The position numbers were made by a program, and so were the translations under genes. From the NCBI GenBank assembly GCA_002779605.1, contig PEWE01000007.1:1-43711 (forward strand): DNA of 43,711 bases, read 5' to 3'. The stretch comes from Zetaproteobacteria bacterium CG06_land_8_20_14_3_00_59_53. GTDB taxonomy: Bacteria; Pseudomonadota; Zetaproteobacteria; Mariprofundales; Mariprofundaceae. Positions 3,002 through 43,675 of this stretch are shown here, one piece after another. The notes below the pieces were generated by a model. That model was given only the letters and a program-made list of their open reading frames with translations, did not search any database and had not been told where the DNA came from. Position 1 is the stretch's first letter; each line of letters opens with the position of its first letter.

Positions 3002-4171
3002 ATGAAGATCGCTATTGCTGGTACAGGCTATGTGGGGCTTTCTAATGCCGTGCTGCTGGCACAGCACCACGAGGTGGTTGCGCTGGATATCATTGCCGAG
3101 AAGGTGGCGATGATCAACCGCAAGCAGTCTCCCATCGAGGACAAGGAGATCGAGGAATACCTCGAAACCAAGAAACTTAATCTGCGTGCCACGCTGAATA
3201 AGCAGGAAGCTTATGAGGGCGCCGAGTTCGTAGTGATCGCCACCCCGACCGATTACGACGAGAGAACCAACTACTTCAACACCAGCTCCATCGAGGCGGT
3301 GATCGAGGATGTGAAGCGCATCAATCCGAATGCAGTAATGGTGATCAAGTCCACCGTGCCGGTCGGCTACACAGCCCACACGAGAGAGAAATTCACCTGC
3401 GACAAAATCATCTTCAGCCCGGAATTCCTGCGCGAAGGCAAGGCTCTATACGACAATCTGTATCCTTCACGTATCGTGGTCGGCGAGCGATCGGAGCGGG
3501 CGAAGGTGTTTGCGGAACTGCTCTGCGAGGGTGCCGTGAAGCAGGACATCCCCCTGTTGTTCACCGATAGCACAGAGGCGGAGGCCGTCAAACTCTTTGC
3601 CAACACTTATCTGGCCATGCGGATCTCCTACTTCAACGAGCTGGACACATATGCTGCCACGCACGGGCTGGATACTCGGCAGATCATCGACGGAGTATGT
3701 CTCGATCCGCGCATTGGCGCACACTACAACAACCCCTCATTCGGCTACGGAGGATACTGTCTGCCCAAGGATACCAAACAGTTGCTCGCCAACTACCGCG
3801 ATGTGCCACAGAACATGATCCATGCGATTGTCGAGGCTAACTTCACGCGCAAGGACTTCATTGCAGACGACATCCTGCGCCGAAACCCCAGGGTGGTCGG
3901 CGTGTATCGTCTGATCATGAAAGCAGGCTCGGATAATTTCCGCGCATCCAGTATTCAGGGCATCATGAAACGCATCAAGGCCAAGGGTATTGAGGTAGTG
4001 ATTTACGAACCTGTTCTGGAGGACAGCGAGTTCTTTCACTCGCGTGTGATCAAAGATCTCGATGCCTTCAAGCATGAAGTCGATGTGATTGTCGCCAACC
4101 GAATGTCCGATGATCTGCGTGACGTGGCTGACAAGGTTTATACCCGCGATCTGTTCGGCAGGGATTCTTAG
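3002..4171 (+). CDS. ugd: UDP-glucose 6-dehydrogenase
   Basis: This enzyme oxidises UDP-glucose twice with NAD+ to UDP-glucuronate, a precursor of capsule and exopolysaccharide sugars. The 389-residue protein starts with the Rossmann motif [10 protein letters not shown] (residues 7-16). It contains the conserved STVPVGYT and SPEFLREG motifs, K197/N201 in [12 protein letters not shown], and the catalytic cysteine C253 in [10 protein letters not shown]. The last residues (YTRDLFGRD) form the usual family end, so the gene is intact. The start follows a strong AAAGGGGAG ribosome site. It appears to be transcribed alone. The final G of its TAG stop is also the first base of dispersed repeat copy A. 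Confidence 0.95.
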
Positions 4172-4433
4172 GGCCTGTTTTCACCGAATTCGCGTGAAGT
4201 GCTGCTGCCTGAAATAGGGCCAGGCAAGGCGCGAGAAGTGAAGTTTGATGGCTCCAAATGAACGACGAGCAACGCTGCATGGCCTATTTCGGACGCATCT
4301 GCCGGGTGGGCTATTTTTCCACCCTGCGGCGTTATCTCTCACTCATGTGCAACAAGCCTATCGCATTCGCCATGGCTTGCAGATTCGAAAAAATGGTCTT
4401 GTCGCCGAACACGCGTTTAGAGAAAACAGACCC
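4171..4433. repeat. Dispersed repeat copy A with inverted ends
   Basis: This 263-bp element fills the gap between the convergent ugd and ABC permease genes. A second copy, about three quarters identical by eye, lies at 40951-41215. The ends are inverted repeats: left GGGCCTGTTTTC pairs with right GAAAACAGACCC. A core block is nearly identical in both copies (AAGTTTG, then CCAAATGAACGACGAGCAAC, 4253-4272). A central hairpin, GGGTGG / CCACCC, surrounds GCTATTTTT. There is no convincing reading frame and no obvious target duplication. It could be a miniature non-autonomous transposable element or a structured RNA. Its position also makes it the only candidate terminator for both flanking genes. 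Confidence 0.8.
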
Positions 4434-39291: not shown

Positions 39292-39321
39292 GTATGGGGA
39301 CTGAAAAAAGCCGATTCAAGG
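39292..39321 (-). promoter_or_regulatory. Sigma-32 (RpoH) type heat-shock promoter for dnaK
   Basis: On the minus strand, CCTTGAA (39321-39315) and CCCCATAC (39299-39292) are separated by 15 bases. This matches the RpoH consensus CTTGAA and CCCCAT closely at accepted spacing. It lies between grpE and dnaK, about 110 bp upstream of dnaK, so dnaK-dnaJ can be heat-induced apart from hrcA-grpE. Confidence 0.8.
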
Positions 39322-39888: not shown

Positions 39889-40935
39889 CTAGTTCCTGCC
39901 TCCTAAAATTCTGCTGACCAGCCGGGCTGTGCAATCCACCACCTGCAGCACGCGGTCGTACTGCATGCGTCGCGGTCCGATCACACCCAGTGTACCCACG
40001 GTATTCATCGGCCCCTGATAGCGCGCCATCACCAGCGACACCTGCTCCATATCCACCAGCGCATGCTCGCTGCCGATGAACACGCGGACCCCATGCTCAT
40101 CCTTCTCCACCTGCTCCATCAGATGCAGCAGGCGTTCCTTCTCCTCGAAGGCTCCGAGAAGTGAGCGCACGGTATCGATCACCCCGAACTCGGGCATGGC
40201 AAGCAACTGCCGCTGGCCGCTGACAAACATATCGTCCTGACGGTGTGTAGGGGCCTCGGCCCAGCGTTTCAAGTCCTCAAGCAAACATCGCACATGCTGG
40301 CGGTCCTGTTCCATCTCGCGACGCAGGCGATTCTGCGCCTCGGCAAGGTCGCAATCGGCCAGTAATTCGTTCAGGCGCAGCGATACTTCATGCAGCCTCT
40401 TGTCGCTCAGCCCCTCGGGCCGATCGATCAGACGGTTCTGCACCTCGTCGCCGGAGGTCACGATCACCGCCAGCACCTTCTCGGAACTGACCCCGATCAA
40501 TTCGATGCGGCGGATGCGAGTCACCCCGCTCTCATGCACCCAGACGAGTCCGGCATATCTTGTCAGCGAGGCAAGTTCGTCGGTGGCGCGGCGCAGCAGA
40601 TCCTTCTGCATGCCTGCCTGGCTCAAATGTCCGGCAAGCGTCTGCTCCATGGTTCGTTCGATGTACGGGTCGGCGACCATCAGGGTATCAACAAAATAGC
40701 GCAGACCGCGATCGGTCGGCACGCGTCCGGCCGAGGTGTGCGGCGAGGCCAGCAAACCGCGATGCTCAAGCTCGGCCATCACATTGCGGATCGAGGCCGG
40801 ACTTAAGGATATATGTCCCTGTTCGGCCAGTGTGCGCGAGCCCACAGGCTGCCCGTTGGCCAGATAAGCGCGCACCACATCGCCCAGTATTTGCCCGTGT
40901 CGCTCGTTCAGATCTTTGCTGCCGCGTCGTTGCAT
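39889..40935 (-). CDS. hrcA: Heat-inducible transcription repressor HrcA
   Basis: HrcA represses class I heat-shock operons by binding CIRCE elements and is kept folded by GroEL. The 348-residue protein has an N-terminal winged helix: NERHGQILGDVVRAYLANGQPVGSRTL, then LSPASIRNVMAELEHRGLLASPHTSAGRVPTDRGLRYFVD, which is the family signature. The C-terminal region has EHALVDMEQVSLVMARYQ and GTLGVIGPRRMQYDRVL. ATG 40935 begins MQRRGSKDLN; no strong ribosome site precedes it. Dispersed repeat copy B begins only 16 bp upstream, which suggests the native leader was replaced or displaced. Confidence 0.95.
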   Translation of the reverse strand: MQRRGSKDLNERHGQILGDVVRAYLANGQPVGSRTLAEQGHISLSPASIRNVMAELEHRGLLASPHTSAGRVPTDRGLRYFVDTLMVADPYIERTMEQTLAGHLSQAGMQKDLLRRATDELASLTRYAGLVWVHESGVTRIRRIELIGVSSEKVLAVIVTSGDEVQNRLIDRPEGLSDKRLHEVSLRLNELLADCDLAEAQNRLRREMEQDRQHVRCLLEDLKRWAEAPTHRQDDMFVSGQRQLLAMPEFGVIDTVRSLLGAFEEKERLLHLMEQVEKDEHGVRVFIGSEHALVDMEQVSLVMARYQGPMNTVGTLGVIGPRRMQYDRVLQVVDCTARLVSRILGGRN

Positions 40936-40940
40936 AAGGG

Positions 40941-40968
40941 CTGGCACTCTAGGGCCTGTGAGCGCCAA
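40941..40968 (-). promoter_or_regulatory. Possible degenerate CIRCE operator of hrcA
   Basis: On the minus strand TTGGCGCTC (40968-40960), ten bases, then GAGTGCCAG (40949-40941). Each half matches CIRCE (TTAGCACTC - N9 - GAGTGCTAA) at 7 of 9 positions, but the spacer is 10 rather than 9. One half lies in the leader and the other inside repeat copy B. It may be chance. Confidence 0.3.
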
Positions 40969-41215
40969 ATGCGAGCGAAGCGCTGCTGCCCGAATGTGGC
41001 CAGGCAAGACGCGAGAAGAGAAGTTTGGTGAATCCAAATGAACGACGAGCAACGCCGCATGGCCGCATTTCGGGCGCAACCCCTTGGGACGGGCTATTTT
41101 CCGCCCTGCTGCGTTATGCCTCGCTGATGTGCAACAAGCACATCACGCTCCCCATGCCTTGCAGAATCGAAAAAAATGACCTCGTCGCTGCGCCCGCGTT
41201 TAGTGCTCACAGGCC
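40951..41215. repeat. Dispersed repeat copy B with inverted ends
   Basis: This 265-bp element between hrcA and the rplM promoter region is the partner of copy A at 4171-4433. Left GGGCCTGTGAGC pairs with right GCTCACAGGCCC. The core CCAAATGAACGACGAGCAAC (41033-41052) is identical to copy A. The central stem is GGG(A)CGG / CCGCCC. Where copy A has TTTC near the left end and GAAA at the right, copy B has GAGC and GCTC: both ends changed together and pairing is kept. No gene is visible. Confidence 0.8.
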
Positions 41216-41230
41216 CCGCCCCAACTGTCA

Positions 41231-41268
41231 GTGACAATCAATCAGCGTCCCCGTGACAATCCATCAGG
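41231..41268. repeat. Two 15-bp direct repeats, 22 bp apart
   Basis: GTGACAATCAATCAG (41231-41245) and GTGACAATCCATCAG (41253-41267) differ at one base and start 22 bp apart, about two turns of the helix. The first is preceded by TGTCA, giving TGTCAGTGACA. They could be a paired operator site or a decayed transposon end. They lie between repeat copy B and the rplM promoter. Confidence 0.5.
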
Positions 41269-41353: not shown

Positions 41354-41381
41354 TTGACATCCGGAACGGGCTGCCTATACT
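41354..41381 (+). promoter_or_regulatory. Strong sigma-70 promoter of rplM-rpsI
   Basis: A perfect -35 TTGACA (41354-41359), a 16-bp spacer and a -10 TATACT (41376-41381) lie about 50 bp upstream of rplM. This fits a highly expressed ribosomal protein operon. Confidence 0.85.
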
Positions 41382-42594: not shown

Positions 42595-43611
42595 TCAATC
42601 GTTTTCGAGACTGTCCAGCGGGCTTTTCACCGCGCCGAGGTTCTGTCGCAGCACATGCGTGTATATCTCCGTTGTTTTCACATCGACATGGCCGAGCAAC
42701 TTCTGCACCACCCGGATATTGGTTCCCGATTCCAGCAGATGCGTGGCGAATGAGTGGCGCAGGGTATGGGTGGTCACCCGCTTGTTGATCCCGATTTGTT
42801 TGGCGGCAGCCCGAATCGCCTTCTGTAAACCCGAATCATCCATGTGGTGGCGGCGTGTTTCGCCCGACTGGGGATCACGCGAAAGAGATTTGGATGGAAA
42901 CAGATACTGCCACTCCCATGATTGCGGCGCCTTGGGATATTTCTTCGCCAATGCGCCGGGCAGCCAGACATTGGCATTGCCCTCGGCAATGTCCTTGTCG
43001 AACAGTCGTTGCACTCTCTGTAAATGTATCCGTAAATCATCGCGAACAGATACAGGCAGCAGTGTTGTGCGGTCCTTATCTCCCTTGCCGGATCGAACAG
43101 TGAGATAGCCATTGCCAAAGTCGATGTCCTGAACGCGTAAGCGTAACACTTCCATGAGCCGCAAACCGCCACCATACATTAACCTGGCAATAAGACCGTG
43201 AACGCCCTCGACCTCCGCCAGCAGTGCCTGTATTTCATCCCGGCTCAATACAACAGGTAAGCGCACAGGCTTATTGGCGCGAACCGGAGCCAGATCATCG
43301 GCAACCGGGATGTCCAGCACATCGCGGTAAAGGAATATAATCGCATTGAGCGCCTGATTTTGAGTGGACGCCGCTACATTTCTTTCCACCGCCAAATGCG
43401 TCAGAAATGATTCAATCTCTGCCTTTCCCACTTCGCGCGGATGACGAGTGCCGTTGTATTTGATGAACCATCTGATCCAGCGTGCGTATGCCTCTTCGGT
43501 TCGCAGCCCATAATGATGATAACGAAGCACTTCATGAACCTGATCCATCAGCTTCACTGCCTTTGGGTGATACTTCGATTTTTCATTGACGCGCGGTTTG
43601 AATCGGGACAC
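42595..43611 (-). CDS. intI: Integron integrase (IntI)
   Basis: IntI is the tyrosine recombinase that joins gene cassettes at attI by attC x attI recombination. The 338-residue protein has the full catalytic set R151 (GGGLRLME), K176 (SGKGDKD), H282 and R285 ([11 protein letters not shown]), H308 (LLGHVD) and Y317 (EIYTHV). All are offset by 5 from class 1 IntI1. The integron-specific insertion between boxes is present: [23 protein letters not shown] ... [12 protein letters not shown] (about 217-257), absent from XerC/D. GTG at 43611 follows GGAG at good spacing; an upstream in-frame TTG is less likely. The gene is intact and faces away from the right edge, where attI and cassettes are expected. 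Confidence 0.93.
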
Positions 43612-43675
43612 TGTTTCTCCATTCCGTGTTTGCAAGCAATATCGAATATGGGGGAATTATGTCCGTATATATGAG

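Follow-up and report, generated by a model that had tools for sequence, protein, structure and literature searches.

The window analysed here is a stretch of 43,711 nt of contig PEWE01000007.1 from Zetaproteobacteria bacterium CG06_land_8_20_14_3_00_59_53. At its end the minus strand carries the heat-shock genes hrcA-grpE-dnaK-dnaJ, and the plus strand carries rplM-rpsI. NCBIfam models confirmed hrcA, dnaK, dnaJ, rplM and rpsI, and grpE was matched by many GrpE models, none of those shown being above its own curated cut-off. Beyond rpsI, on the minus strand (42595-43635), lies the gene for a 346-aa tyrosine recombinase with Phage_integrase and Phage_int_SAM_4 domains, a pair which we take to recall integron integrases.

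The 482-bp interval between hrcA and rplM contains a 265-nt repeat (copy B) with the termini GGGCCTGTGAGC and GCTCACAGGCCC, and 16 nt (40936-40951) separate it from the ATG of hrcA, which begins at 40935 on the minus strand. The sequence-only reading had placed a repeat in front of hrcA; the repeat is real and the 16-nt gap was exact, whereas the coordinates 40951-41215 were off by one base. A second copy in the window (copy A) matched the whole 265-nt copy B query with 78 % identity (E 2.4e-53), and matches at E ≤ 0.001 were found in 13 of 41 genomes, the source genome included; the repeat match is therefore beyond chance. At most 18 candidates were scored per genome, so that high per-genome counts are lower bounds. 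The source genome contained two further short partial matches besides copies A and B. The UDP-glucose 6-dehydrogenase gene ends in a TAG stop codon that is completed by the first base of copy A; at the position of this copy (L243), G001, the closest relative, shows a small hairpin, GAAAGGGCTGAGCCCTTTC.

39889-40935, minus strand: hrcA, 348 codons plus stop (TIGR00331, 286.8 bits, cut-off 197.2)
40952-41216, no strand: element copy B, a predicted hairpin-forming mobile repeat of 265 nt
4171-4433: element copy A, 263 nt, in the interval between the UDP-glucose 6-dehydrogenase gene and an ABC permease gene

The gene hrcA was located in 21 of the 41 genomes, namely in the window, in 15 relatives of the same family and in five others. 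In most of the same-family relatives a CIRCE-like operator in front of hrcA overlaps a sigma-70-like promoter. The promoter motif TTG[TC]C[AT]-N16-TA[GT]A[GC]T preceded hrcA in 10 of the 15 same-family relatives (the other five lacked a convincing motif), but neither in the window nor in any of the five genomes outside the family. CIRCE scores in front of hrcA were 13-17 of 18 in 10 of the 15 same-family relatives, 11/18 in G001, 12/18 in G002, which belongs to the genus of the window, and 9/18 in G015, and no convincing site was seen in G003 or G012. The hrcA site of the window fell short of TTAGCACTC-N9-GAGTGCTAA or a near form of it (best 9 of 18).

Comparison with G001 revealed where these signals have gone. 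On the hrcA strand the window reads TTGTCA-CTGACAGTTGGGGCG-(265 nt)-TAGAGTGCCAG-CCCTT-ATG, and the empty site in G001 reads TTGTCA-CTGGCAGCTATGGCGC-TAGAGTGCCAG-ACCTG-ATG. Both promoter hexamers and both CIRCE arms thus flank the element, which the sequence-only reading had not recorded:

41232-41237, minus strand: orphaned hrcA -35 hexamer, TTGTCA
41223-41231, minus strand: left arm of the split CIRCE-like operator, CTGACAGTT, degenerate
40946-40951, minus strand: orphaned hrcA -10 hexamer, TAGAGT, adjoining the element
40941-40949, minus strand: right arm of the split CIRCE-like operator, GAGTGCCAG

That reading had described the space of the promoter and CIRCE operator as filled by the repeat. 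The control region is indeed disrupted, but it has been split in two and not filled. Relatives with the same leader and without the element, which the reading had named as evidence against itself should their expression be identical, do exist; this concerns the sequence half of that comparison. Full element marks in front of hrcA were found in the window only, among the 21 loci, and the single lax element matches at L065 and L072 were chance-like.

Even before the insertion the genus may have had a weak operator, because the left CIRCE arm is degenerate in G001 and G002 and five of the 15 relatives lack a convincing promoter. An explanation built on this, in which the hrcA operator and perhaps the promoter decayed earlier in the genus and the insertion was near-neutral and changed little, would also account for the genus mate G003, which has no clear CIRCE site or promoter motif, and for the weak left arms that accompany the scores of G001 and G002. 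We nevertheless hold it to be rather unlikely, as the hexamers and their 16-nt spacing have been kept in G001 and, in the form TTGTCT/TAGACT, in G002.

Nearby flanks differ between the window and G001, yet the two share TAGAGTGCCAG, the 11 nt adjoining the element, without any change, and because of this the -10 hexamer could still be in use. The unchanged 11 nt are the best argument that the element helps transcription. As in the Correia elements of Neisseria, for which strong promoters are reported in passages of PMC10969869, the repeat might give hrcA a new promoter, or upstream contacts for the remaining -10, and the unchanged TAGAGT and right operator arm would fit such a role. The sequence-only reading had likewise proposed that the element brought or contains a promoter. 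The consensus scans lent this no support: on the hrcA strand of the 482-bp interval there was no sigma-70-like site of ≥8/12 in a lenient scan and no sigma-32-like site of ≥9/12 (two poor ones scored 8/12), and 28 element copies contained four sigma-70-like sites in total, both strands together. A promoter conserved within the element was rejected on the latter count, and we regard promoter supply by the element, as far as consensus scans can tell, as improbable. One scan that called an hrcA promoter in G001 called none on the hrcA strand in the window. The opposite strand has a promoter-like site for rplM.

41354-41381, plus strand: rplM promoter-like site, TTGACA-N16-TATACT (consensus match only)

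Inspection by eye agreed with the earlier observation that the hrcA ATG lacks a strong Shine-Dalgarno site. The link then drawn to the element did not hold up, since the distance from TAGAGT to ATG is 10 nt both in the window and in the element-free G001, where again no obvious Shine-Dalgarno sequence was seen by eye. From this spacing the hrcA transcript would have hardly any leader, whether the element is present or not. In several relatives the start codons lie further downstream.

The remainder of the heat-shock circuit can be followed from dnaK outwards. A sigma-32-type promoter in front of dnaK matched the consensus at 12/12 positions, which bears out the internal promoter of the sequence-only reading and favours the second of its two options, namely that hrcA-grpE is weakly expressed and dnaK-dnaJ relies on sigma-32.

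39294-39320, minus strand: sigma-32-type promoter before dnaK, CTTGAA-N15-CCCCAT, 12/12 (consensus match only)

The source genome has one site before an rpoH-like gene and one before groESL that each differ from TGGCACTC-N9-GAGTGCCA at a single position. At ≤3 mismatches the CIRCE pattern was no commoner than its reversed control in this genome (7 versus 9 per strand), and the two sites are credible only because of their position and low mismatch number. The site before the rpoH-like sigma-32 gene was present both in the source genome (L249:1501-1525; C10:255682-255706) and in G001 (L256). The rpoH-like protein passed the cut-off of the sigma-32 subfamily (286.4, cut-off 241) and was below that of the RpoH model (282.9, cut-off 323.1), and groESL of the source genome was identified from the start of groES and from the locus in G001, in which GroEL was confirmed. 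Given its sites before these two genes, HrcA seems to keep targets, and the site before the rpoH-like gene suggests that HrcA controls sigma-32 itself.

The repeat belongs to a family present in many Gamma- and Zetaproteobacteria. The pattern used for core searches, CCAAATGAACGACGAGCAACGC, had exact matches in at least 118 stretches of named GTDB contigs, and among the matches listed were Ca. Thiodiazotropha, Pseudomonas, Azotobacter, Alcanivorax, Salinisphaera, Nitrococcus, Gilvimarinus, Sedimenticola and Zetaproteobacteria MAGs. In eight chosen genomes the core at ≤3 mismatches occurred 40 (L103), 4 (L108), 3 (L125), 17 (L102), 8 (L106), 1 (L169), 9 (L167) and 19 (L101) times, and reversed-pattern controls gave zero in all eight. 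Full-length copies were 263-308 nt long (34 copies), and a terminal inverted repeat was found in 113 of 134 distinct copies (138 core places). For seven of eight elements checked, the joined flanks aligned to an unoccupied site in a relative, with low identity for L017 and L032; the eighth, L026, gave a partial match only. TA flanked 47 of 66 left ends and 48 of 66 right ends (both sides in 34), and several empty sites were without TA. Palindromes as a rule for the insertion target were rejected, being unsupported at six empty sites. Short, multicopy and mobile, with terminal inverted repeats, the repeat is a hairpin-forming, MITE-like element, probably a non-autonomous one.

Several observations concern partial or modified forms. 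Solitary ends (about 20 nt) were common, as were end-to-end palindromes with lengths of about 60-100 bp (L194, L207, L208, L212, L211:570-632; G041), and Ca. Thiodiazotropha endoloripes had 224 end matches versus 40 core matches. Single-arm versions, in which the left-arm core lies inside a perfect stem of other sequence, were seen in L015:1501-1562, L014 and L021, the clearest case being L015 with two copies in tandem. Further short inserts within an arm were present in L011, L020, L037, L047 and L048, some of them common to several genomes. In L018, L026, L034, L037 and L043, with gene calls from a simple ORF script, the element ends 2-6 nt before a start codon or overlaps the preceding stop codon.

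No mobilizing enzyme was found for the family. A search for the ends of an autonomous transposon parent in 20 stretches with unpaired ends, several of them clipped by contig ends, yielded no distant second end; short end-to-end palindromes at L204 and L211 were the sole finding. Phage records gave no element match, plasmid records gave short core matches only, in three records (the Halomonas one without annotation at the match), and one viral contig was matched in two stretches. Of 30 Y1 (RAYT) transposase loci none had element ends and one (L281) had a core-like match, whilst the element-rich G013 had no Y1 match.

In several respects the repeat resembles known elements. Like MITEs and Correia elements, as described in passages of PMC10969869, it is short, non-coding, multicopy and intergenic, with terminal inverted repeats and stable folds, and often lies beside genes. 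Unlike them, it has two inverted arms around a near-fixed core, and its ends vary between copies and remain self-complementary. The lack of a conserved outward promoter, seen in the scan of 28 copies, sets it apart from Correia elements, which according to the same passages can carry promoters and one of which, near the mtrCDE promoter, carries an IHF site. No parent insertion sequence turned up in the 20 stretches with unpaired ends. The repeat is palindromic like the REP/BIME and TIR repeats, which go with RAYT and TIRYT transposases and are dispersed in Gammaproteobacteria (passages of PMC3733652), but REP sequences are 20-40 bp in length and the repeat is about 265 bp; identity with REP sequences mobilized by RAYT was rejected on the size of the full-length copies and the Y1 results. 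In searches of the open-access literature by topic and by sequence no description of the family was found, the single sequence match being PMC10106347.

The architecture of the family was derived from an alignment of 28 of the 34 full-length copies, six being omitted, mostly for internal inserts. The predicted structure consists of an outer stem, a left arm and a right arm (stem and arm coordinates below are from alignment columns mapped by hand):

40952-40976: outer stem, first side, helix 1, pairing with 41192-41216
41192-41216: outer stem, second side, helix 1
40982-41080: left arm, helices 2-4, with the conserved core
41005-41055, plus strand: left core, CAAGACGCGAGAAG (41005-41018) and CCAAATGAACGACGAGCAACGC (41034-41055)
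41088-41186: right arm, helices 6-9; diverged copy of the left arm in inverted orientation
41111-41162, plus strand: right core region, from GCGTTATGCCTCGC (41111-41124) to GCTCCCCATGCCTTGC (41147-41162)

The outer stem and both arms co-varied strongly across copies, and short core motifs were near-fixed. Of 85 pairs, 54 had compensatory changes; cells with both sides changed numbered 217 (shuffle mean 50.5) and 95.7 % of cells paired (shuffle mean 85.2 %), values that none of 500 shuffles reached, in a test which related copies inflate. Slid versions of the structure paired at 35-40 %, a comparison favouring the predicted structure, which came from the same alignment. The score for aligning the right arm with the inverted left arm was reached by none of 500 single-base shuffles. 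In the 66 of 113 terminal-inverted-repeat copies anchored on a GGGCCTG-like end, where conservation of the first seven bases is partly by choice of anchor, the two ends of one copy agreed at 0.88 over positions 8-28 and ends of different copies at 0.51.

Outer-stem mismatches were equally G-T (23) and A-C (22), as expected if base pairing counts in the DNA itself. In the arms G-T exceeded A-C (46:13 and 46:16), partly because of two columns with G-T as the commonest pair; the folding program accepts G-U and not A-C. RNA folds were very stable on both strands (z about -6.6), and together with the G-T excess of the arms they might speak for an element that acts as RNA, as a structured hrcA leader on a long upstream transcript. 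We consider this very unlikely: the scans found no promoter upstream on the hrcA strand, rplM runs the opposite way, the outer-stem mismatches are symmetric and Rfam gave no match at gathering score for the window, its one other match (E 0.9) being chance-like. The repeat would rather be maintained as DNA that needs to pair with itself, and not chiefly as RNA. An idea more remote still is that of a DNA-structure switch, in which cruciform extrusion or precise exit would leave a 15-bp spacing between -35 and -10 and rejoin the CIRCE arms, so that supercoiling or heat toggles hrcA; the family would, more widely, spread by hairpin-templated copying with one arm rewritten from the other, which would explain why ends differ between copies yet are self-complementary.

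The reading that we prefer, with a probability of roughly 0.6, is that a mobile repeat of about 265 bp split the hrcA promoter and CIRCE operator and probably ended hrcA's own heat-shock control. It draws on what was read from the sequence (the repeat with its family, the unoccupied site of G001, the flanking hexamers and arms, and the remaining CIRCE sites) and on consensus scans in which no replacement promoter was found. The element would have entered exactly between two blocks, one made up of the -35 hexamer and the left CIRCE arm, the other of TAGAGT, beginning with its TA, and the right CIRCE arm. This would disable the native promoter of hrcA and the autoregulation by HrcA; transcription of hrcA-grpE would be weak or would start from an unrecognized promoter; dnaK-dnaJ would be transcribed from its own sigma-32 promoter; and HrcA would continue to act at groESL and rpoH.

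Events in which a MITE-like element enters a control region are of a known kind. The operators compared here are like those of CIRCE/HrcA systems in that the arms overlap the hrcA promoter in relatives and that sites precede groESL and the rpoH-like gene; unlike an intact CIRCE, the hrcA operator of the window is divided by 265 bp. In Lactococcus lactis, a single base change in one arm of the CIRCE that precedes groESL increased the expression of groESL by more than 2-fold and improved heat tolerance (passages of PMC4585701), a case which concerns another gene and a point mutation and which shows that operator damage of this sort has effects.

The locus offers a natural case in which a mobile repeat cuts through the control region of a heat-shock repressor gene where promoter and operator overlap; the empty site, the sister operators and the sigma-32 back-up can all be read from the sequence. 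The family pairs co-varying hairpins with a near-fixed core, and its mode of movement, and why its arms have to match, are testable questions.
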